Of a stretch of DNA of 64,000 bases, positions 34,456 to 64,000 are shown piece after piece. A program made the translations under genes and the position numbers. The notes beneath the pieces are model-generated. The model saw only the letters and a list, made by a program, of their open reading frames with translations, was not told the DNA's origin and ran no database searches. The stretch lies in the NCBI GenBank assembly GCA_021849425.1, contig JAJZSY010000003.1, positions 124,001-188,000 of the forward strand, in the 5' to 3' direction. How positions within the stretch are numbered: the stretch's first letter is position 1; each line of letters begins with the position of its first letter. The DNA comes from Pseudomonadota bacterium (GTDB lineage: Bacteria > Pseudomonadota > Alphaproteobacteria > Acetobacterales > Acetobacteraceae).

Positions 34456-35177
34456 TCGCCCCGCCGGAGCGGCTCGACTGCGGGTGTGAACATGTAGCCG
34501 CTCCCCCAGATCGTCTTGATCAGTTGCGGCTCGGAGACGTCCCGCTCGATCTTGCGGCGCAACCGGCTGATCTGGGTATCGATGCTGCGATCCAGCGGGG
34601 CAGCATTGCGCCCCCGGGCCAGATCGAGCAATTGTTCGCGGCTCAGCACACGCTGTGGTCGCTCGACCAGGACCAGAAGCAGATCGAACTCACCGGAACT
34701 CAGGGGCACGCTTACCCCGTCCTCGCCCAGTAATTCCCGGCGTTCGACATCCAGAACCCAACGATCGAAGCGGTATCGCACGTCTTGCCGCCCAGGTTCG
34801 CTGACAAACGGGGCGCGGCGCAAGACCGCCCGGATCCGGGCGATCAACTCGCGGCTGCCGAAGGGTTTTGCCAAATAGTCATCGGCACCCATCTCCAGGC
34901 CGATGACCCGATCGACCTCTTCGCCCTTGGCCGTCAGCATGATGATCGGCACGCGGCTTTCCGTGCGCACCGAGCGACAGAGCGACAGCCCATCCTCGCC
35001 CGGCAGCATGAGGTCGAGCAGGATCAGGTCGATCCGGTTGTCGGCCAGCAGTTTGCGCATGGCGCGGCCGTCGGCCACCAGACTGACCCGGAACCCTTCG
35101 CGTTGCAGCACCCGCTGCACCAAATCGCGAATTTCGCGATGGTCTTCGACGAGCAGGATATGTGGGGCTTCGTTCAT
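34452..35177 (-). CDS. OmpR/PhoB-family response regulator
   Basis: 241 residues. Receiver domain with acidic pair ED at 11-12, phospho-acceptor D55 (LILLDLMLPGEDG) and Lys in LAKPFGSRELIARI; C-terminal winged helix (VPLSSGEFDLLLVLVERPQRVLSREQLLDLARG...RSIDTQISRLRRKIE...LIKTIWGSGYMFTP). Partner of the adjacent kinase. It is divergent from the Met-rich protein gene at 35411 across a region with TGACAA repeats that I propose as its binding sites. A truncated paralogue lies at 36010-36114. Confidence 0.93.
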   Translation of the reverse strand: MNEAPHILLVEDHREIRDLVQRVLQREGFRVSLVADGRAMRKLLADNRIDLILLDLMLPGEDGLSLCRSVRTESRVPIIMLTAKGEEVDRVIGLEMGADDYLAKPFGSRELIARIRAVLRRAPFVSEPGRQDVRYRFDRWVLDVERRELLGEDGVSVPLSSGEFDLLLVLVERPQRVLSREQLLDLARGRNAAPLDRSIDTQISRLRRKIERDVSEPQLIKTIWGSGYMFTPAVEPLRRGD

Positions 35178-35250
35178 GTTCGTGATCTAGCCGGGCACAG
35201 CAGAACATGCCTCAACAAATATGTGTCAGGTTGTGTCGGATGCCCGGCGT

Positions 35251-35370
35251 GGCAGGAATTGTCACAGCTTCGCCTCCCGCTGACAATCTTCGGTGACAAA
35301 TGATCCGTATATTGCTTCTCGGCGGGCAAGATCCTGCCGTTGCGGCATACGGGGATATCCGTTGGATCGC
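35251..35370 (+). promoter_or_regulatory. Promoter/leader region A (twin of region B at 41413-41534)
   Basis: In order: TTGTCA (35259-35264) forming an inverted pair with TGACAA (35281-35286), a second TGACAA at 35294-35299 (13-nt period), a -10-like TATATT at 35308-35313, then two short palindromes, GGCA...TGCC near 35323-35336 and ACGG...CCGT near 35349-35362. The same order and spacings recur in region B. TGACAA/TTGTCA resembles the half-site known for CusR/CopR-type copper response regulators. Drives the Met-rich gene at 35411. Confidence 0.6.
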
Positions 35371-36009: not shown

Positions 36010-36114
36010 TCATTTTTCAAAGCCGGTTGCGGTGTGGTCCAAAGACACCTTGAGGGCCAAATCACGAATCTCGCGATGGTCCTCCACCATCAGGATATGC
36101 GGGACGTCGCTCAT
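36010..36114 (-). pseudogene. Truncated response regulator (first 34 residues)
   Basis: ATG 36114 opens a frame reading MSDVPHILMVEDHREIRDLA, nearly the same as the N-terminus of the intact regulator at 34452-35177 (NEAPHILLVEDHREIRDL). After residue 20 it diverges and stops at residue 34, before the phospho-acceptor Asp. It is therefore a remnant of a second, related regulator gene, left when the neighbouring MFS/ATPase block joined here. Confidence 0.75.
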
Positions 36115-36160
36115 CTCCCTAATCGTTACGCGTGAGCACGCAAGTGTAACCTTCTCTGCC

Positions 36161-37420
36161 TCACAGCAAGTCTTGCCGCGTCGGGCTTGCTTTCTCGACC
36201 GCGCCGGGCGGAATCTCTGACCGGAACAGCGCGACCGAGGCCCAGGCTGCGGCGGCCTCTACAGCAGCAAAAGCCCCAAGCGCAGGCCCGAAGCCGAGGC
36301 GGAGCACGTCGCCGAAAACGAGACTTCCAAGGCCGAAACCGGTAAACAAAAAGAACACGTTGAGGCCCATGGCCTGCCCCGGCCGCTTGCCACCGAGGGA
36401 CGTGACAATTCCGGCAAACAGCGGTTGTGTCATGTCGTAGCCGAGCGACAGGATCGTGACCGCGATCGCGGCGGCAAGCAGCGGCAGGCCGAGGATCAGC
36501 GCTGTCGTTGCGAGAGAACCAAGCCCAAGTCCGATCGGAAGGAGCCGGCCCCGGCCCAGCCGGTCCGCTGCTCGCCCGATCACCGGGCCGAACAGAAAGC
36601 CCGGAACGCCATAGCCAAGAAGCGCCAGGCCAATACCGATCGGGCCGAGGTTGTAGCGGCGCTCGAAGTAGACGCCGAGCCAGGTGAACACGCCGGACTG
36701 GAACACGGAATTGAGCAAAACACAGAAGTAGGTGCGCCGGCCTCGTGGCGTGCCGAGCAGATCCCGGTAGCCCCGGAATAGATCGCCCAAGGTCGCGGCC
36801 GCTTGGCGCGGGCGCGCCCCGATGAATCCACGGTAGGGCAAGAGCAGGAGCAGGACGCCAGATCCGGCCGTACCGACGAGGAGAAACAATCCCTGCCAGC
36901 CGATATACGGCTCCAGCACGGCACCGAAGGTCGAGCCGAAGGCCATGCCGCCGGCCATGGCGCCGAACAGCCAGCCAAGCGGCCGGCCTCTTTGCTCGTA
37001 GGGGAACATACCACCGACCAGCACGAGTGCGAGCGGCACAACCCCACTCGCGCCGAGACCGGTCAGCACGCGCCACGCCGCCAGCGCTGCGACGGAATGC
37101 GCCGTCGCGGTCAGGACCGTGAGCACGGCGAAGGCGGCGAGCGAGGCGAAGATGAGAGGACGGATGCCGAGCCGGTCCGCGAGCAGACCGTAGGCCAACG
37201 TCGCGGCCCCATAGGGAATCAGATAGGCGGGAACGATCAGACCGACGGCTTCGGCAGACACACCGAAGGCCGCGGAGAACTGCGGGATGATTGGCGCCAC
37301 CATGAACGCCTGGAAAAAGACGATGAAGGTCGCCAGCGCGAGCACCTGCAGGAGGCGCTCGCGCTCAACCGTTGCGCTTGACTGGCCCTCGGTCACCGCC
37401 CCCGGTGGTGTTGCGTTCAC
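36161..37420 (-). CDS. MFS transporter (DHA1-like), last gene of the merR-ATPase operon
   Basis: 419 residues with 12 hydrophobic segments. Motif A region GLLADRLGIRPLIFASL, motif C-like LTGLGASGVVPLALVLVGG, and a second-half motif GRAADRLGRGRLLPIGLG. Predicted inner-membrane secondary transporter; substrate not readable. Its start overlaps the stop of the P-type ATPase gene by 4 nt, so it belongs to the operon that begins with merR at 41293. It may export the same metal or a metal complex. Confidence 0.82.
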   Translation of the reverse strand: MNATPPGAVTEGQSSATVERERLLQVLALATFIVFFQAFMVAPIIPQFSAAFGVSAEAVGLIVPAYLIPYGAATLAYGLLADRLGIRPLIFASLAAFAVLTVLTATAHSVAALAAWRVLTGLGASGVVPLALVLVGGMFPYEQRGRPLGWLFGAMAGGMAFGSTFGAVLEPYIGWQGLFLLVGTAGSGVLLLLLPYRGFIGARPRQAAATLGDLFRGYRDLLGTPRGRRTYFCVLLNSVFQSGVFTWLGVYFERRYNLGPIGIGLALLGYGVPGFLFGPVIGRAADRLGRGRLLPIGLGLGSLATTALILGLPLLAAAIAVTILSLGYDMTQPLFAGIVTSLGGKRPGQAMGLNVFFLFTGFGLGSLVFGDVLRLGFGPALGAFAAVEAAAAWASVALFRSEIPPGAVEKASPTRQDLL

Positions 37421-39876
37421 GCTGCCGCCTCCGCTCGCAGCGCCGCGTCCTCCACGGGATGTCCGACGCTGACGATGGCGTCGAAGAACAGGCGCGGCCG
37501 GCCCCAGAGCGAGTTAGCGAAAATCGCCGTGACGCTGACCGCCATCGCGACCATTGCCCAGACCGGGTAGATCAGCCCGGTCGCCGCGACCGGGATGCCG
37601 ATCCCGTTGAACAGAAAGGCCAGGGCGATGTTCTGCAGCATCTTGCGGTAGCTGTTCCGGCTGATCATCCGGGCGACCGGAAGCGCGTCGATCCGGTTGG
37701 AGAGGATGATGATGTCGGCCGACTCGATGGCGATGTCGGTGCCGCCGCCCATCGCGATCCCGACATCCGCCTGCATCAGCGCGGGGGCATCGTTGATGCC
37801 GTCGCCCATCATCGCAACCCGGCTGCCATCGGCCTGAAGGCCGCGCACGATTTCCGCTTTCTCATGGGGCAGGACACCAGCACGCACCTCATCGATCCCC
37901 ACTTCCAGGGCGACATGCCGTGCCGCGCGTTCGTTGTCGCCAGTGACCATGATTGGCACCATCCCCGTCTTGCGCAACGCCGCTACCGCCCGCGCCGCGT
38001 CGGGCCGCAGCGTATCGCCCAGGGCCAGCGCCCCAAGCGCGCGGCCGTTCCGGCCCACCACGATCACCGTGTGCCCGGCCTTTTCCAAGGCGCCGATCCG
38101 TTCAACGAGACGTGATAGATCGATGCCGCGCTCCGTCAGAAAGCGCGGGTTGCCAACCAGCACGTCGTCTCCCTCAATGCGCGCGACCACGCCCTTGCCG
38201 GGTATCGCCTCGAACGACCCGACCTCGGGCGGAACGATGCCGCGCTCGAACGCCGCATTCACCACGGCTTGCGCGAGGGGGTGCTCGGATGATGCCTCGG
38301 CCGCGGCGGCAACAGCAAGAAGTTCGTCTTGATTTCCTTCGATAACCTTGATGTCCTGCAGGACAGGGTGCCCTTCCGTGAGCGTGCCGGTCTTGTCGAG
38401 CACGATCCTCGTCGCCAGCCGGTAACCCTGGAACGCTTCGCCTGTGCGCATCAGGATACCCCGTCCGGCAGCGTCCCCTGCCCCGCGTACGATGGAGAGC
38501 GGCGCGGAGATGCCGACGGCGCACGGATAGCCCATGACCAGCACACTCAGGCCGGCGAATACCGCCCGCTCCACATCGATGTGCCCAGTGCCGAGCCATG
38601 AGCCGATGAGCCAGCCCACGAAGGCCGTCATCGCGACGAGCAGCACCGTCGGGGTATAGACGCGCAGCACGCGGTCAACCAGGTGCAGCAGACCCGGCTT
38701 GAGTGCCCGCGAATCCTCGACCTCGCGGATGACCTTGTTCAGGAAGCTGGCCTCGCCGACCGCCGTGACCTGCACCAGCAGCGTGCCGGTACCGTTGATC
38801 GAGCCGCCGATGACGGCGGCACCTTCTGTCATCTCGACAGGGATAGGCTCTCCGGTCACCAGGGATTGGTCAACCCCGGAGCGGCCGCTCACGACAACAC
38901 CGTCCACCGGTACGCGCTCGCCGGGACGAACCCGGACCCGATCACCAACCGTCACATCCGCGAGCGGAACTTCCATTTCGATATCGCCGCGCAGGATGCG
39001 GGCCGTCTCCGGCTGCAGGTCGAGCAGCTTCTTCACCGCCTGCGAGCTGCGCGTCTTGACGATGAGCGACAGCCACTCCGAGAAGATGTGATAGGTCAGG
39101 ACCATCACCGAGACGGCGAAGAACGGCGCGGTCGGGTAGCCTGGCTGCTTCAGCGAGAGCCCGATGATGCCGCCGGCCATGCCCGCAAAAGCACCGATTT
39201 CGAGCAGCACATGCTGGTTGAGGATGCCGCGCCGCAGTGCCTGATACGCCATCACCAGGATGTGCTGACCGATGCCGAAGACCAGGACCAGGGCCAGCGT
39301 GGCGACAATCCAGGGCGTTGCTCCGACAATCCAACCAAGCTGCCGCGCGAGGAGCAGCGCGACCACCGCGCCGGCCAGCACCGCAGTGCCAAAAATCGCC
39401 GTGGCGAGGCCGCGAGCACGCAATACGAGGAAGACCAAACCAAGCAGACTCGCGAACACGGCAACGCTGAGCGTGATCGCGGCCGAACCGTTGGCCGGGT
39501 TCGCGATCAACGCGATCGCCAGCAGGCTGAACGCCGTCGCGGTGAGAAAACGCCGCCCCTCGCGTACCAGGTCACGCTCCTCGTCCTCGAACGGGCGCAG
39601 CTTGCGCGGGTCCGAGACGGTATAGCCGATCTCGCGCAATATCTGGAGCAGTTGGTCAGGGCGCGCGACACTCGGATCGTATTCGACGAGGGCCTGCTCG
39701 TGCGTAAGGCTCACCGACACCTTGTCGACGCCGGGCTGACGCCCAAGCGCCTTCTCGATGGTGCCGGTGCAGAGCGAGCAGTGCAAGCCGCCGATCCGGG
39801 CGCGGATCTTGCACCGGTTGGGCCGATTTGACGGTTCTTCGGTCCAGAACGTTTCAGGGGCAATTGTTTCTGACAT
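37417..39876 (-). CDS. Heavy-metal P1B-type ATPase with YPC motif in place of CPC
   Basis: 819 residues. N-terminal HMA domain with C33-x2-C36 (GLHCSLC); A-domain TGEP (341-344); TM6 motif Y450-P-C452; P-domain DKTGT (494-498); HP (532-533); GDGINDAP (691-698). Exports a soft metal from the cytosol using ATP. Cu(I) pumps have CPC in TM6 and a YN pair in TM7; here the first Cys is Tyr and TM7 reads LFNGIGIP, so specificity may differ. It is the fourth gene of a five-gene operon headed by a mercury-type MerR, with Hg(II) as the candidate substrate by inference. Confidence 0.9.
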   Translation of the reverse strand: MSETIAPETFWTEEPSNRPNRCKIRARIGGLHCSLCTGTIEKALGRQPGVDKVSVSLTHEQALVEYDPSVARPDQLLQILREIGYTVSDPRKLRPFEDEERDLVREGRRFLTATAFSLLAIALIANPANGSAAITLSVAVFASLLGLVFLVLRARGLATAIFGTAVLAGAVVALLLARQLGWIVGATPWIVATLALVLVFGIGQHILVMAYQALRRGILNQHVLLEIGAFAGMAGGIIGLSLKQPGYPTAPFFAVSVMVLTYHIFSEWLSLIVKTRSSQAVKKLLDLQPETARILRGDIEMEVPLADVTVGDRVRVRPGERVPVDGVVVSGRSGVDQSLVTGEPIPVEMTEGAAVIGGSINGTGTLLVQVTAVGEASFLNKVIREVEDSRALKPGLLHLVDRVLRVYTPTVLLVAMTAFVGWLIGSWLGTGHIDVERAVFAGLSVLVMGYPCAVGISAPLSIVRGAGDAAGRGILMRTGEAFQGYRLATRIVLDKTGTLTEGHPVLQDIKVIEGNQDELLAVAAAAEASSEHPLAQAVVNAAFERGIVPPEVGSFEAIPGKGVVARIEGDDVLVGNPRFLTERGIDLSRLVERIGALEKAGHTVIVVGRNGRALGALALGDTLRPDAARAVAALRKTGMVPIMVTGDNERAARHVALEVGIDEVRAGVLPHEKAEIVRGLQADGSRVAMMGDGINDAPALMQADVGIAMGGGTDIAIESADIIILSNRIDALPVARMISRNSYRKMLQNIALAFLFNGIGIPVAATGLIYPVWAMVAMAVSVTAIFANSLWGRPRLFFDAIVSVGHPVEDAALRAEAAA

Positions 39877-39879
39877 TTT

Positions 39880-40590
39880 CTATCCTCTCATTCCAGGCAT
39901 TCCCATTCCGGGCATCGGCTGGCGGATCGAGACGAACAATCCGAACCAGATCGACCAGAGGCCAACGGCAATCAGGATCAGCCCCGTGATGATCGGCATG
40001 CGACGCGACAGGCCGCCCAGCCAATCGATCACCCGGCGCGCCGGCGCGAACAGCACCGCGACGACGAGCGGCAGCGACAGCGCCAGGCCGAACAGCGCGA
40101 GCGAAAGAAATCCCGTGGCGAGCGGCCTGCCGTCCGCACCACCCGCCGCGGCCGTGCCAAGCAGGGCAAGGACAAGAGGCGCCGCGCAGGAAGGAATGTT
40201 AAAGCCGAACAGCACGCCTAGGCCGAGCGATCCGCGCAGGTTCGACAGACGGGAGAAGCTGGGACCGAGCGCGACCATCAAACGTCCTGTTTGGCCGGTG
40301 ATCAGGAGCAGGCCGAGAATGGCATAAAGGCTGCCCAGGGCGATCCAGACATCCTTCTGCGCCCCCAGAAACCGGCTGCCCAGAAACGCCGCGAGCAGGC
40401 CGAACAAGCCGATCGTCCCGGCGCGGGTCAGGGCAAACCCGATCGTCTCGACTAGCTTGCGTCGGGCACTCTTGCGTTCGAGAAATCCGACGAACACCAG
40501 CGTGGCGCCCAGCGTGCAGGGTTCGACGAAACCGACCAGGCCGAGCCCGATCGGCAGCAGAACGGTCGTGACGGCGACATTCGGCGTCAT
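39880..40590 (-). CDS. CcdA-like transmembrane thiol-electron carrier
   Basis: 236 residues with about six TM segments. Two conserved Cys-containing TM motifs, VEPCTLG (C25) and IPSCAAP (C135), match the redox pair of CcdA/DsbD-type proteins, which pass electrons from cytosolic thioredoxin across the membrane. A Met/Pro/Gly tail (MPGMGMPGMRG) could touch metal. It lies between the HMA chaperone and the ATPase, with a 4-nt overlap and a 3-bp gap. In this operon it could keep metal-binding thiols reduced or carry metal directly; neither is proven. Confidence 0.82.
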   Translation of the reverse strand: MTPNVAVTTVLLPIGLGLVGFVEPCTLGATLVFVGFLERKSARRKLVETIGFALTRAGTIGLFGLLAAFLGSRFLGAQKDVWIALGSLYAILGLLLITGQTGRLMVALGPSFSRLSNLRGSLGLGVLFGFNIPSCAAPLVLALLGTAAAGGADGRPLATGFLSLALFGLALSLPLVVAVLFAPARRVIDWLGGLSRRMPIITGLILIAVGLWSIWFGLFVSIRQPMPGMGMPGMRG

Positions 40591-40802
40591 TGTCGGGCCG
40601 TGACCCGGTAGCCGGGGCGTTCGATGGTCGCTGCGAGACGATCTTCCGTGACGATTCCTGGATCATACAAAACGCGCGCCTCGCCGCTTGCGAACGAGAC
40701 CGAAACGGCCTTCACGCCCGGCTCCTTCTCCAGCAGGGCCTTGACGGTGCTGGCGCACCCGTCGCAGCGCAGACCCTCGATCCTGAAAATCGTGTTCTTC
40801 AT
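40587..40802 (-). CDS. Small HMA-domain metal-binding protein (CopZ/MerP-like, no signal peptide)
   Basis: 71 residues: a single ferredoxin-like HMA domain with the metal-binding loop RCDGCAST (C13, C16) and the usual ending Y-x-V. There is no export signal, so it is a cytosolic chaperone rather than periplasmic MerP. Probably delivers metal to the HMA domain or TM site of the ATPase encoded two genes downstream, or buffers it for MerR. Four-base overlaps on both sides. Confidence 0.88.
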   Translation of the reverse strand: MKNTIFRIEGLRCDGCASTVKALLEKEPGVKAVSVSFASGEARVLYDPGIVTEDRLAATIERPGYRVTARQ

Positions 40803-41293
40803 CGCGTGTTCTCTTTTTTATGCTTTGTGCAGGACGATTTTCTCGGGTTGGTGTGCGGGCGCCTCCCATTCTCGGCGCGCCCGCCGGAGCGAGGCGTCAG
40901 CGCATCCATGATCGAGCACGCCTGTAAGGCGCCCTGTCCAGGGCAGGCCGCGATCAGCCGCTCCAGCGCGGCGCCGATATCCTGGAGCCGCTGGATCTTC
41001 CGCCGCACGTCAGCAAGTTTCGTGGTGGCCTGCTCCCGGACTTCCGAGCAGTCGGTAGCGGGATCGGCCCGCAAGGCCAGCAGTTCGTGGATCTCGCGCA
41101 GCGAGAAGCCGAGCTCCTGGGCCTCCTTGATGAACCGGATGTGCTCGATCGTATCGGCCGGATACCGCCGCGCGCCCGAACCCTCCAGCTTCGGCGGCTG
41201 CCGGACAAGGCGCTGCCGTTCGTAGAAGCGGATCGTCTCGACGCCGACGCCCGCCTCACGCGCGGCTTTCCCAATGGTCAGTTCTGCTCTCAT
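40799..41293 (-). CDS. merR: MerR-family regulator of the mercury type
   Basis: 164 residues. N-terminal winged helix (LTIGKAAREAGVGVETIRFYERQRLV), linker helix, and the three cysteines that bind Hg(II) in Tn501/Tn21 MerR at exactly the same numbers, C82, C117 and C126 (C-x8-C between the last two). The C-terminal tail (about residues 132-164) is longer than usual, basic and overlaps the HMA gene. First gene of its own operon, preceded by the ribosome site AGGTGG and the operator at 41311-41342. Represses, and with Hg(II) activates, that promoter (established for the family). Confidence 0.9.
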   Translation of the reverse strand: MRAELTIGKAAREAGVGVETIRFYERQRLVRQPPKLEGSGARRYPADTIEHIRFIKEAQELGFSLREIHELLALRADPATDCSEVREQATTKLADVRRKIQRLQDIGAALERLIAACPGQGALQACSIMDALTPRSGGRAENGRRPHTNPRKSSCTKHKKENTR

Positions 41294-41310
41294 CTTTCCA
41301 CCTCGTGCCC

Positions 41311-41342
41311 AATATGGGGTCCGTACTGTAGTACGGAGTCAA
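41311..41342 (-). promoter_or_regulatory. MerR-type promoter with mercury operator
   Basis: Read leftward: -35 TTGACT (41337-41342), a 20-bp spacer and -10 CATATT (41311-41316). The spacer holds the perfect dyad CCGTAC-TACA-GTACGG (41321-41336). The over-long spacer is the signature of MerR-controlled promoters, and the dyad is nearly the same as the CCGTAC...GTACGG operator of the Tn21/Tn501 mer operons. It lies 18 bp upstream of the merR start. Confidence 0.85.
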
Positions 41343-41412
41343 GGGAGATCGGCAGACGTCACTCGATGGACGATACGACGCGCAACTGGAATGCCCCGCT
41401 CCAGATGCACGT

Positions 41413-41534
41413 GGCACAAATTGGCACAGTTTCCCGTCCCGCTGACAAGTTTTGGTGACACATAGTCCCTATATCTTGCTTTCGGCGGGCAAAGCTCTGC
41501 CGCGGCGGCACACGGAGATTCTCCGTAGGATCGC
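41413..41534 (+). promoter_or_regulatory. Promoter/leader region B (twin of region A at 35251-35370)
   Basis: TTGGCA (41421-41426), TGACAA (41443-41448), TGACAC (41456-41461, again 13 nt later), -10-like TATATC (41470-41475, again 14 nt later), then palindromes GGCA...TGCC and ACGGAG-ATT-CTCCGT. The palindrome arms are kept while the centres differ from region A. Drives the metallo-hydrolase gene at 41570 and lies back to back with the merR promoter. Confidence 0.6.
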
Positions 41535-43242: not shown

Positions 43243-44436
43243 TTATTTAACAAACACCCAACCTGGGTGGAGAAACGGAAAAGCAATCAGACCGATCACT
43301 GCTGTTACGGCGATGAGCGCTGGATTGCTGATCTTCCAGCGGAACAGCGCGCCAAGCGAAACGAGGCCGATCAGAACGGTTAGCCAATCGCCGATGGCAA
43401 GCTTCCCAAGGAGAACGCAGGCGCCGAGAATAGTTCCTATCGCAGCCGCGTAGGCACCTTTGACAAAGCCCTGCACATTTGGGTTGGCACGGTGACGGAT
43501 CAGGAGCGGTGCCGCGACCAGGACGTAGATGAACGACGGCAGAAAGATACCAACCGTTGCAATTAGCGCTCCCCAAAACCCGGCCACGAGATAGCCGACA
43601 AACGTCGCGGTGATGACGACCGGTCCTGGACTCACCATGCCGATGGCAACCGCGATCAAAAACTCACGCGGATCGAGCCAATGATACTGGTGAACGATGC
43701 CAGCCTCCAAAAACGGGACAATGACCAACCCGCTGCCGAAGGTCAGAGATCCAGCCTTCAGAAAGAAAAACAACAGCTTGGGAAGCACGGAGCCGACCGC
43801 ACCGGGCGTAACCGGCACCACCATTGCGGCCAGATTGCCGGGCGGCCTCTGGCGGAAGATATTGCCATACGCCAGCACGCCGATGAGACCAGCGCCCATG
43901 AACAGCAAGGCGACTTCGGCCTTGAGGATGACCGTGACGGCAAAACAGCCAGCGGCGAGCAGCCATTGCAGCCACCCTTCCATGCCGAGCTTGGCCAGCC
44001 GGTAACAGGAGTACAAAATCAGCGCGATGACCGCTGGACTGACGCCATAGAAAATTGCGGTTATCAGCGGCAGGCCGCCAAAATGGACGTAGAGCGCGCC
44101 AAGGACCGCGACGATCACGAAGTTAGGAAAAATGAACGCCCAGCCCCCCGCTACGGCGCCGAGAAGCCCGCCGCGAAGATAAGCGATAAAAATGCCAACC
44201 TGTATGGCGAGCGGCCCCGGCAAGGACTGGCACACTGCAATCGCTTCGCGCATTTGCTCTTTCGACAGCCAGCCGCGCTCGACCACCAGTTCACGTTCCA
44301 TCTGGCCAACCAGAGCGACGGGGCCGCCGAATCCAAACGCTCCCAGACGCAGAAAATAAAGGATCAGCTCGGCCAGATGCCCTGTTGGATGAGGGGCCTG
44401 GGCAATTGGTCCTTCAACGGGCGGTCCGTTCAGCAT
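43243..44436 (-). CDS. chrA: Chromate transporter ChrA
   Basis: 397 residues, two homologous CHR halves. The first half begins LILYFLRLGAFGFGGPVALVGQME and contains CQSLPGPLAIQVGIFIAYLRGG; the second begins LLFFFLKAGSLTFGSGLVIVPFLEAG with IGMVSPGPVVITATFVGYL. This is the long ChrA form that exports chromate from the cytosol. It follows chrB by 14 bp in the same direction. Confidence 0.93.
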   Translation of the reverse strand: MLNGPPVEGPIAQAPHPTGHLAELILYFLRLGAFGFGGPVALVGQMERELVVERGWLSKEQMREAIAVCQSLPGPLAIQVGIFIAYLRGGLLGAVAGGWAFIFPNFVIVAVLGALYVHFGGLPLITAIFYGVSPAVIALILYSCYRLAKLGMEGWLQWLLAAGCFAVTVILKAEVALLFMGAGLIGVLAYGNIFRQRPPGNLAAMVVPVTPGAVGSVLPKLLFFFLKAGSLTFGSGLVIVPFLEAGIVHQYHWLDPREFLIAVAIGMVSPGPVVITATFVGYLVAGFWGALIATVGIFLPSFIYVLVAAPLLIRHRANPNVQGFVKGAYAAAIGTILGACVLLGKLAIGDWLTVLIGLVSLGALFRWKISNPALIAVTAVIGLIAFPFLHPGWVFVK

Positions 44437-44450
44437 GATGCGGAGGCCTT

Positions 44451-45449
44451 CTAGCGGCGCTTTTTTCTGAACGATTCATAGAGATCGTCGAACAAGGCCG
44501 AACCGCGCACGAAGCGCTGTTCGTCTTCTTTATGCGTCTTGGTCAGGCCGACAATAAGCGAACCGATACCAGGGGTTTCCTCACGGCCGAATTTCTCGTC
44601 CTTAAGGTCAATGTCGTGGACAATCTCGGCAATCGCGCCAAGGGCTGGATCATTTAGCCCGATATGGGCCAGCAATACCTCGAAGGTGCAGCGGTCGCCT
44701 TCATGGGTGAATTCCGCCTCGAACATGTCGAAACGCAGCTCTCCGGGGTTTGGCTGGTAACCCTTCGCGGCGACGAATTTGAACCGCGCATCAGGATCGA
44801 CAAAGCGGCGGATCAGCCATGCCGATGCAATCCGATCGACATGCACATCCTGCCTCGTCACCCAAGTCCGGCCTTTAAGGGCATCAAGGTTGCTTGCTGC
44901 CTGAGCAGCTCCATCCACTTGCATTTTAGCTTCTCCCTGGAGTTCTTGCTCAAGCGCGCCCAGCAGCCCATCCACAGTCTCTCGGCCATTGGCGCCAAAG
45001 AAATCCAGAGCAACGAGCTTGGCCACCTTCGCCTTCAACTTTGACAATCGGCTTTTGACCTCCGCGGTTCCTGCCGATTCTTGCCGCAGCGCCCCGCTCA
45101 GTTCACGGGCTTCCTTGGCAAGCGCCTCGTAATCGGCATCGCGTGCCGCATTGAAGATGGCCCGCACTTCCTGATCCGACAGGCCGTCGATCAGCTTTGC
45201 CTCGCAAATCAAAGCTTCGCCTCCGGATGCAGTGATCTCACGCAGGACCCAGACAAAATCCTCTTTCGTCTGTTCATTGGCGGGCAGCACATAGACGGTG
45301 CTTTTTACTGCCACGGCGCCAAGCGCCTGTAGCCGGCGCCAGATCTTGACGCGCGCATAAGCCGGATTAGCCGGCAGCTGATGGATCAGCAGAAGCCACC
45401 GCTCGGCTTCAGCGGCCGCGTCGCTCCCGGCAGGCTTAAAATCTATCAT
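44451..45449 (-). CDS. chrB: Chromate resistance protein ChrB (chromate-sensing regulator)
   Basis: 332 residues. N-terminal ChrB_N region (RWLLLIHQLPANPAYARVKIWRRLQALGAVAVKSTVYVLP) and the C-terminal ChrB domain (TWVTRQDVHVDRIASAWLIRRFVDPDARFKFV...FDMFEAEFTHEGDRCTFEVLLAHIGL). ChrB proteins act as chromate-responsive repressors of chr operons (established for Ochrobactrum). The ATG at 45449 lacks a ribosome site and lies 7 nt after a likely -10 box, so the mRNA may be leaderless. Confidence 0.92.
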   Translation of the reverse strand: MIDFKPAGSDAAAEAERWLLLIHQLPANPAYARVKIWRRLQALGAVAVKSTVYVLPANEQTKEDFVWVLREITASGGEALICEAKLIDGLSDQEVRAIFNAARDADYEALAKEARELSGALRQESAGTAEVKSRLSKLKAKVAKLVALDFFGANGRETVDGLLGALEQELQGEAKMQVDGAAQAASNLDALKGRTWVTRQDVHVDRIASAWLIRRFVDPDARFKFVAAKGYQPNPGELRFDMFEAEFTHEGDRCTFEVLLAHIGLNDPALGAIAEIVHDIDLKDEKFGREETPGIGSLIVGLTKTHKEDEQRFVRGSALFDDLYESFRKKRR

Positions 45450-62346: not shown

Positions 62347-63786
62347 TCATCCGGCGCAGCAGGAGAGCTTGGCCACATCCTTCTGAAAGCCGAGCGACGC
62401 GAGCTTCAGCCCCTCGACCGTGGTCAGATAGGGGAACAGCGTTTCCGCGAGATCGGTAACCGTGAGATTGTGCTTGATCGCGAGCACCGCGGTCTGGACG
62501 CTGTCCGCTCCTTCAGGAGCAAGAATATGCGCGCCGAGCAGCCGAAGACTGTCCGCCTCAGCGATGAGCTTGATCAGCCCGCGTGTATCGCGTGCCGCGA
62601 GTGCGCGCGGCACCTGGGCAAGATCAAGCCTGACCGTACGGATGTTGTGGCCCTGACGGCGTGCCTCCGTCTCGGTAAGGCCGACGCTTGCTACCTGCGG
62701 ATCGGTGAACACCACTTCGGGCATCGCGCGCGCGTCATACCGCCTCGAGTTGCTGTTCAGCGCGTTCTCCGCCGCGAGTTTGGCGCCATAGGCCGCCATA
62801 TAGACATACTGGTCCCGTCCGGTGACATCGCCCGCCGCATAGGTTCCGCACCGGTTGGTGGCGAGATGCTCGTCGGTCGCGATCGCACCGTTCCGATCGA
62901 GCGTGATTCCGGCGGTGTCGAGACCCATACCGCTTGTGTTCGCGCGCCGTCCGGTAGCGATCAGTACTCGTTCAGCTTCGATGGTCTGGGCAATTTCACC
63001 CGCCATGATGTCGAGTGCGATACCTGCTTCCGTCTGCCTGATCTGCCGATATGTTGCGCCGCATTCGATCCTGATGCCTTCATCCTGCAGATAGCCGGCA
63101 AGCGCATCGCTGATCTCCGGCTCGAACCCCGGCAACAAGTGCGAGCGGCAGACGATGGTGACGGCAACGCCGAATCGCGCGAACATCTGACCGAGTTCGC
63201 AACCGATCACCCCGCCGCCGATGATCAGCAGGGATGTTGGCAGGCGATCGAGCGCCAGCGCCGACGTGCTGGTCAGATAGGGGATTTCGGTAAGTCCCTC
63301 GATCGGTGGGATAGCGGGCGAGGCGCCGGCGGCGATCACCACCCGATCGGCTGGGAAAATTTCGTCCCCCGCCTCAATCCCCGCATCGGTAAACCGCGCA
63401 CGGCCCTGAACATAGCGTATCGTCTCATATTCTGGGAGTAGCGCCTGGTATTTGGCCCCGCGCAGATCGGCGACGAGTTGGTCCTTCTGTGCCATCAGGG
63501 CCGACCAATCATTGATCCGCGCAGCACCCGTGATGCCGGCGAAGCGGCTGGAAGATTTGGCATGATGCAACGCCTCGGCCGCGCGGATCAGGGTTTTCGA
63601 CGGCACGCAGCCGATATTCACGCAGGTGCCGCCAATCGTGCCGTGACCAATCAAGATCACGTTCGCGCCGAGTTCGCTCGCCCGGATCGCGGCAGAAAAC
63701 CCCGCCGATCCAGCACCGATCACCACCAGATCGGGGATCGTGGCGCGGGAGGATGCGCAGCAATCATGTGTCGTCACAGCGTCCAT
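62347..63786 (-). CDS. merA: Mercuric reductase MerA (short form, no HMA domain)
   Basis: 479 residues. FAD site VVIGAGSAGFSAAIRA, redox-active C55/C60 (GGTCVNIGCVPSK), NADPH region LLIIGGGVIGCELGQMFARFG, ATGRRANT, TYAAGDVTGRDQYVYMAAYGAKLAAENAL, dimer interface, and the C-terminal vicinal pair C476-C477 (LSCCAG) that delivers Hg(II) to the active site; this pair separates MerA from other disulfide reductases. Reduces Hg(II) to volatile Hg(0) with NADPH. An N-terminal CC (9-10) replaces the HMA domain. Confidence 0.95.
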   Translation of the reverse strand: MDAVTTHDCCASSRATIPDLVVIGAGSAGFSAAIRASELGANVILIGHGTIGGTCVNIGCVPSKTLIRAAEALHHAKSSSRFAGITGAARINDWSALMAQKDQLVADLRGAKYQALLPEYETIRYVQGRARFTDAGIEAGDEIFPADRVVIAAGASPAIPPIEGLTEIPYLTSTSALALDRLPTSLLIIGGGVIGCELGQMFARFGVAVTIVCRSHLLPGFEPEISDALAGYLQDEGIRIECGATYRQIRQTEAGIALDIMAGEIAQTIEAERVLIATGRRANTSGMGLDTAGITLDRNGAIATDEHLATNRCGTYAAGDVTGRDQYVYMAAYGAKLAAENALNSNSRRYDARAMPEVVFTDPQVASVGLTETEARRQGHNIRTVRLDLAQVPRALAARDTRGLIKLIAEADSLRLLGAHILAPEGADSVQTAVLAIKHNLTVTDLAETLFPYLTTVEGLKLASLGFQKDVAKLSCCAG

Positions 63787-63911: not shown

Positions 63912-64000
63912 ATGATCCTGATTGGCGCGCTAGCCACGCAAACGCGGTGCAATATCGAGACGATCCGATTTTATGAAAAGATCGGCGTGCTACCGAAACC
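63912..64000 (+). CDS. merR: MerR-family regulator, 3' part beyond the window
   Basis: About 29 codons to the right edge from ATG 63912 (GTG 63900 possible). The reading IGALATQTRCNIETIRFYEKIGVLPKP is the MerR winged-helix start (compare IGELA...VNIETIRYYE in the family). Divergent from merA over 125 bp, the usual place for merR. The metal-binding Cys lie outside the window, so Hg specificity cannot be confirmed. Confidence 0.85.
   Translation, partial: MILIGALATQTRCNIETIRFYEKIGVLPK

Follow-up and report, generated by a model that had tools for sequence, protein, structure and literature searches.

A MerR-controlled five-gene operon with a variant P1B-type ATPase in an Acetobacteraceae contig: a putative mercury-handling and export system

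Here we describe a five-gene operon from an alphaproteobacterium of the family Acetobacteraceae (assembly GCA_021849425.1, contig JAJZSY010000003.1), in which a MerR-type regulator heads genes for a small HMA metal-binding protein, a CcdA-like membrane protein, a P1B ATPase, and a transporter of the major facilitator superfamily (MFS). The stretch analysed, hereafter the window, comprises 64,000 nucleotides (positions 124001-188000 of a 193-kb contig), and coordinates below are those of the window. The genes follow one another head to tail on the minus strand from 41293 to 36161: merR (40799-41293; 164 aa), the HMA gene (40587-40802; 71 aa, CDGC at residues 13-16, Pfam HMA 53.9 bits), the CcdA-like gene (39880-40590; 236 aa, C25 within EPC and C135 within NIPSC), the ATPase gene (37417-39876; 819 aa, N-terminal HMA domain with C33 and C36), and the gene of an efflux-type MFS transporter with a GTG start (36161-37420; 419 aa, Pfam MFS_1 174.7 bits). 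The merR/HMA, HMA/CcdA, and ATPase/MFS junctions are 4-nt overlaps and a gap of 3 nt separates the CcdA-like and ATPase genes; the coordinates thus bear out the single leftward operon, with this gene content and spacing, that was proposed in a preliminary description of the window, which mentioned neither the operator nor the YPC motif of the ATPase described below. Pfam and NCBIfam confirm the MerR, HMA, P1B ATPase, and MFS assignments. The operon, its operator, the classes of its regulator and pump, and the partner proteins can all be read directly from the DNA. Given that the five-gene unit contains no merA, merT, or merP, it is not a mer operon in the strict sense.

The regulator carries cysteines at positions 82, 117, 126, and 155, and an alignment with Tn501 MerR (PDB 5crl, which at 90.4 bits scored highest among 16 solved sequences) places C82, C117, and C126 on the Tn501 triad, as had been claimed beforehand. 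TIGR02051 (MerR) was the best of 15 NCBIfam models, with 127.1 bits. Directly before merR lies a MerR-type promoter/operator (41311-41342, minus strand) reading TTGAC-TCCGTAC-TACA-GTACGGA-CCCCATATT, which consists of a -35 box TTGACT (41342-41337), the palindrome TCCGTAC-TACA-GTACGGA (41337-41320), and a -10-like CATATT (41316-41311). It matches, at 14 of 14 consensus bases and with 0 mismatches, the proteobacterial MerR site TCCGTAC-(4)-GTACGGA, which is given a 19-bp spacer, or a 20-bp spacer in mixed cases, in the available text of Permina and colleagues (PMC1526738); here a 20-bp spacing gives CATATT as the -10 element and a 19-bp spacing gives CCATAT. According to the same text, CueR and ZntR sites differ from the MerR site, and the window promoter does not match the CueR-type operator ACCTTCCC-(5)-TGGAAGGT. 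Twenty base-composition shuffles of the window contained no operator with 0 or 1 mismatch, and among the matches listed no other window site combined three or fewer mismatches with a TTGA box. The locus therefore shares with the Tn501/proteobacterial mer operon a Cys triad of 35/9 spacing and the operator TCCGTAC-N4-GTACGGA within a 19- or 20-bp promoter spacer, as well as merA beside the cassette in relatives (see below). Unlike Tn501 mer, its merR is the first gene of the operon rather than divergent, and its outputs are ATPase, MFS, HMA, and CcdA-like proteins.

The Cys triad was set aside as proof of Hg specificity: PbrR carries C79, C114, and C123 at the same 35/9 spacing (text available from PMC3431237), and the triad alone thus cannot separate mercury from lead. 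A regulator that sensed Pb(II) or Cd(II) instead of Hg(II), with the pump as a Pb/Cd exporter, would agree with this spacing and with the transport of Pb and Cd assigned to P1B-2 pumps in the available text of PMC4932525. In the PbrR/PbrA lead-resistance system of C. metallidurans, a MerR-family regulator of 35/9 Cys spacing likewise drives a P1B ATPase. A Pb/Cd system is highly improbable here, however, as the CadR-PbrR model fits the window regulator less well than the MerR model (91 vs 127 bits), the promoter carries the MerR palindrome as its operator, the pump lacks the membrane motifs of P1B-2, and merA stands directly upstream in relatives.

In a tree of 94 MerR proteins (few columns for the number of rows), which includes Tn501 MerR and E. 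coli CueR and does not include PbrR (no PbrR was found in the first 50 kb of pMOL30), the window regulator falls in a 26-row clade (support 100/98) that is nested in a 47-row group holding Tn501 MerR (86/87, unstarred) and lies outside the E. coli CueR group. Consistent absence of the triad from relatives, named beforehand as a result that would speak against mercury control, is not what was found: C-x34-C-x8-C is kept in 23 of the 26 clade regulators, the window's included. An operator with 0-2 mismatches and a TTGA box precedes merR in 22 of the 25 other members (loci are given L numbers); none with a TTGA box was found before merR in L016 or L029, and L124 has the palindrome without the box. 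The operator recurs immediately in front of the ATPase gene in L008, L009, L029, L041 (3 mismatches), L118, L019, and L094. The full five-gene order recurs in L068, L074, L171, L174, and L175, in L029, where the CcdA-like matches fall in two frames, and, apart from one gene that escaped detection owing to limits of the open reading frames (ORFs) or of the stretch, in L173 and L121. A merA gene (C-terminus SCCAG) lies directly upstream of merR in L008, L009, L010, L092, and L124, and two genes upstream in L074; MerA was the best model for the upstream gene in L008 and L010. Since several loci are near copies, with identical regulators in L068/L175, L062/L180, L010/L092, and L014/L101, these counts are rows and not independent events. 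Taken together, the triad, the perfect operator, the best-fitting model, and the grouping with Tn501 MerR make Hg(II) the best reading of the signal, and the regulator very probably senses mercury. The Hg-type control put forward earlier gains further support from merA upstream in the relatives.

The pump has the features of the P1B superfamily (DKTGT, SEHP, TGD, GDGIND, and an N-terminal CxxC). The available text of PMC4932525 gives CPC, CPH, SPC, or PCP as P1B signatures; the window ATPase reads YPC at 450-452, and the codons of GYPC (residues 449-452; 38521-38532, minus strand) fall in the helix that bears CPC in other P1B pumps. All 10 ATPases first aligned share GYPC. Of the P1B-1 motifs in that text, CPC is replaced by YPC, YN(X)4P by FN(X)4P, and MXXSS by MAVSV; the P1B-2 motifs CPC, T(X)5QN(X)7K, and DXG(X)7N are absent as well, with Asn, not Lys, eighth after QN (748-757) and a last helix without Asp. 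Because the motifs of both subclasses were tested and found lacking, the pump is filed outside them: by its motifs it is neither P1B-1 nor P1B-2, and not a standard Cu or Zn pump. With ZntA-type P1B-2 systems it shares a P1B ATPase under a MerR-family regulator, and one NCBIfam model is named zinc/cadmium/mercury/lead-transporting, whereas the P1B-2 motifs are missing. ZntR responds to Hg(II), but according to the available text of PMC5769350 ZntA is not known to confer Hg resistance.

A comparison of 68 aligned YPC sequences with 27 CopA controls revealed consistent replacements at the metal site. Residue 450 is Y in 68/68 YPC pumps and C in 27/27 controls; residue 221 is Q (68/68) vs M (26/27), the middle residue of a triplet that reads NQH in the YPC pump; residue 270 is S (63/68) vs E (27/27); residue 756 is F (67/68) vs Y (27/27); and residue 782 is V (66/68) vs S (27/27). 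Residues 222 and 263 are His in all 68 YPC sequences, and C452, N757, M778, and S781 are common to both sets. The CopA equivalents, mapped through our own alignments, are the entry site, the CPC cysteines, YN, and MxxSS (described in the available text of PMC9433437).

These residues bear on the possibility that mercury induces the operon while the cargo of the ATPase is Cu(I), Ag(I), or Au(I), such as copper that mercury has driven out of proteins. Whether judged by sequence or by solved fold, the closest pumps are CopA and ATP7B, with P1B-1 CopA (PDB 7r0g, 4bbj) sharing the fold, the HMA domain, DKTGT, SEHP, GDGIND, and the copper-site residues N757, M778, and S781 besides C452. Copper genes occur near the YPC ATPase in L016 and L018 (Thalassobaculum and Cupriavidus copies) and, as multicopper oxidase and SCO genes, near the operon in the window; E. 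coli copA, moreover, rises about 20-fold with HgCl2 (PMC5769350, available text). We nevertheless consider copper, silver, or gold export unlikely, as five known or proposed copper-site residues (450, 221, 270, 756, and 782) are replaced in the clade and kept in 26 or 27 of the 27 CopA controls, and the operator is not of the CueR type. Relative to CopA, the window pump has YPC for CPC, FN for YN, and MxxSV for MxxSS. A MerR-family regulator, a P1B ATPase, and an HMA chaperone likewise share a regulon in the CueR/CopA system, whereas the window combines a MerR(Hg)-type regulator and operator with CcdA-like and MFS partners and a YPC pump. GolS/GolT/GolB is another MerR-driven system of pump and chaperone.

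A further difference from CopA concerns the N-terminal membrane part. The stretch from the HMA domain to the first core helix comes in two sizes among YPC pumps, 80-89 aa (25/68) and 128-135 aa (43/68), with none between, and the window ATPase is of the enlarged, long form. In its AlphaFold model (mean pLDDT 81; not a topology test) there appear to be ten long helices beyond the soluble domains, where the P1B superfamily is given six to eight transmembrane helices; the helices preceding the actuator domain number six instead of the usual four.

In a tree of 94 ATPases, all 57 YPC rows fell on one branch, apart from the 37 others (SH-aLRT 99). The clade extends over Pseudomonadota, Actinomycetota, Chloroflexota, Acidobacteriota, Deinococcota, haloarchaea, Thermoplasmatota, and one Thorarchaeote. 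For loci fetched by pattern, YPC is true by construction and proves nothing; YPC as a local oddity is ruled out by the motif-covering ATPases fetched without the pattern, all 21 of which carry it (9 plasmid loci, 11 family loci, and Leisingera L250). A Nocardia farcinica P-type ATPase from a table in a mercury review (PMC12195606), considered as a member of the same class, was rejected, as it reads SPC. Shorter YPC ATPases were observed on a Deinococcus peraridilitoris plasmid (L020) and on the Haloarcula plasmid pNG600 (L021), the latter about 2 kb from merA. In literature searches on mercury and P1B subclasses, which left most subscription papers outside, no description of the YPC pump class was found, the term YPC occurred in none of 15 listed papers, and the cassette appeared in no listed title or opening of an abstract. 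The YPC pumps apparently form an unrecognised class of P1B ATPase; this pump class is the new element of the locus, and we file it as a variant P1B ATPase in a MerR-controlled setting. In the window's family the ATPase occurs in 10 of 249 genomes (E 1e-180 or better), and the CcdA-like protein in 6 of 289 genomes of the window's class, the window's own genome included in both counts; the cassette is a rare accessory.

The surroundings of YPC ATPases were compared with those of CopA. The pattern scan returned at least 116 loci, two of which (L046 and L070) were dropped for want of a GYPC ATPase ORF, and 12 of the remaining 114 because the ATPase ORF fell short of 600 aa or its aligned part gave no reading of the motif, leaving 102. 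Controls were 60 CopA loci from the window's class only, including the CopA locus of the window's own genome (L234); 55 of the 60 read CPC and the other five gave no clear reading. Many phyla are represented in the YPC set, whose fetched stretches averaged about 7.4 kb, the control stretches being of like length. A strict merA, merB, or merT was present in the stretch at 14/102 listed YPC loci and 0/60 controls (p = 0.0011), and an operator with TTGA at 15/102 and 0/60, respectively (p = 0.0006). The first control set, of 20 CopA loci, had given 0/20 vs 14/102 (p = 0.07) and was then enlarged to 60 from the same search; as all controls come from one class, part of the contrast may be taxonomic. 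Six of the nine fetched plasmid stretches carry annotated merT, merP, merB, Hg-type merR, or merA.

Among the partner proteins, the CcdA-like one has no Pfam match of its own, and a Foldseek search with its model gave no match at E 0.001 or better. A profile of 22 members nevertheless matches one solved chain, CcdA (5vkv; E 2.5e-5), four members match Pfam DsbD_TM, and two match DsbD_2. C25 is invariant and C135 at least 90% conserved in the 22 sequences, so the protein combines homology to CcdA with two conserved membrane-helix cysteines, as in the CcdA/DsbD transmembrane domain; unlike those systems, the operon has no thioredoxin partner. At L250 (7158-8681), in Leisingera, a 508-aa unnamed protein is encoded between the CcdA-like gene and the YPC ATPase gene, preceded by a MerR operator with 1 mismatch.

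Close MFS homologues (E 1e-50) were found in 12 plasmid records, 11 of them among the 32 records with the ATPase; in the twelfth, from M. fujisawaense, merR is paired with the MFS gene, and M. aquaticum carries both a pair of this kind and the full cassette. Both plasmid pairs (L249 and L251) show a perfect operator and the triad, and neither fetched stretch contains merA. An MFS match above 300 bits occurs at 26 of 122 YPC loci. Because it is paired with a merR of this type on two plasmids, the MFS protein would be a second, separable exporter.

A different division of labour would make the operon not an exporter at all, but a trafficking and redox system serving MerA, in which the transfer or reduction of mercury would fall to the HMA and CcdA-like proteins, and a by-product such as a thiol conjugate to the ATPase and the MFS protein. 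The merA genes directly upstream in L008, L009, L010, L092, and L124 would suit this arrangement, as would L013, L015, and L017, where the same ATPase has another CcdA protein and a thioredoxin-family protein as neighbours. It is improbable in view of the merR-MFS pairs that lack merA in the fetched stretches and of the outward direction of transport, from the cytosol, in P1B ATPases and drug-type MFS proteins whose function is known.

We return to mercury export, and assign a probability of roughly 0.6 to the reading of the unit as a mercury-induced mercury-handling and export operon. We infer from the gene and motif content how Hg(II) binding, promoter switching, chaperone hand-over, and export might be linked. 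Cytosolic Hg(II) would bind the MerR dimer through C82 and C117/C126, and the loaded regulator would twist the long-spacer promoter into an active form, turning on all five genes together. The small HMA protein would take up Hg(II) on its CxxC pair and hand it to the ATPase, which would receive it at the cytosolic entry or on its N-terminal CSLC domain. The ATPase would then carry mercury across the inner membrane past the single thiol of C452, possibly helped by M778, N757, S781, and by H222 and H263, which are invariant. The C25/C135 thiols of the CcdA-like protein would most likely serve to maintain the CxxC sites in reduced form or to relay mercury, as the MerT thiols do. Pumping of mercury by the operon is plausible. 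A bolder generalization, that YPC ATPases across Bacteria and Archaea constitute an unrecognised P1B class whose job is mercury export, is tentative, and we would put it at somewhat below even odds.

Several observations weigh against mercury export, in addition to the copper genes mentioned above. The membrane site keeps one Cys, not two, and bare Hg(II) prefers two thiols; on these chemical grounds the cargo may be a single-thiol form, such as methylmercury, another R-Hg+, or an Hg-thiol adduct. The 127.1 bits of the regulator lie under the curated TIGR02051 cut-off of 150.85, the first Cys of the triad is absent in 3 of the 26 clade regulators (L049, L124, and L178), one of which, L124, stands beside merA, and among the 60 control loci there is likewise one with a triad regulator (L218). 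No strict mer gene was present in the fetched stretch at 88 of the 102 listed YPC loci. Finally, a second type of regulator with 36/10 Cys spacing accompanies the YPC ATPase at 7/102 listed and 4/9 loci, and the one tested scored higher with ZntR models (120.7 and 116.1 bits) than with MerR (106.8); merT or merP genes are present with it in L013, L015, and L090. This ZntR/MerR-like regulator forms, with a small thioredoxin-like protein and another CcdA protein, a second conserved block beside YPC ATPases (L013, L015, L017, L018, L030, L031, L059, L090, L128, L130, and L135), joined by merT in L013, L015, L090, and L135.

Mercury resistance is usually described as import and reduction, with pumps left to other metals (available text of PMC11227200 and PMC12195606), and a term search of the main text of a 2021 survey of mer genes (PMC8261052) returned no word beginning with ATPase. 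Should the YPC ATPases as a class prove to be mercury exporters, active efflux would join MerA-mediated reduction as a second general resistance route. A class of pumps that is controlled through a MerR operator and bears a new metal site would provide a testable route of mercury efflux, a new P1B specificity code, and a marker for mercury-polluted sites.

The window also carries merA (62347-63786; TIGR02053, 536 bits vs a cut-off of 454), 21 kb from the operon and with a divergent merR of its own that starts at 63912 and runs past the window end, which upholds the earlier view that the two units are separate. That merR has a Cys spacing of 35/8, and sharing of the cassette operator by the merA unit was ruled out, with no match of three or fewer mismatches in contig positions 185000-193257. 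Judged from these features, the contig holds another mercury unit under different control, which the operon would complement.

Trb/VirB-type conjugation genes are present on the contig (window 20504-32855), and the operon is therefore probably on a mobile element. It is flanked by a 65-nt direct repeat, 80% identical (35248-35312 and 41410-41474), with one copy upstream of a response-regulator gene and the other upstream of merR; the repeat core, TGTCACCNAAANTTGTCAGCGGGA, occurs just twice in the window, with none expected by chance, and is possibly a shared operator or the end of a duplication. A second repeat of 68 nt, 79% identical (36057-36124 and 35120-35187), shows that the beginning of the response-regulator gene is present again, in truncated form, immediately downstream of the operon. 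Beside the operon, region 43243-45449 contains two genes, one for a ChrA-type chromate transporter (TIGR00937, 293.5 bits) and, upstream, one without an NCBIfam match.

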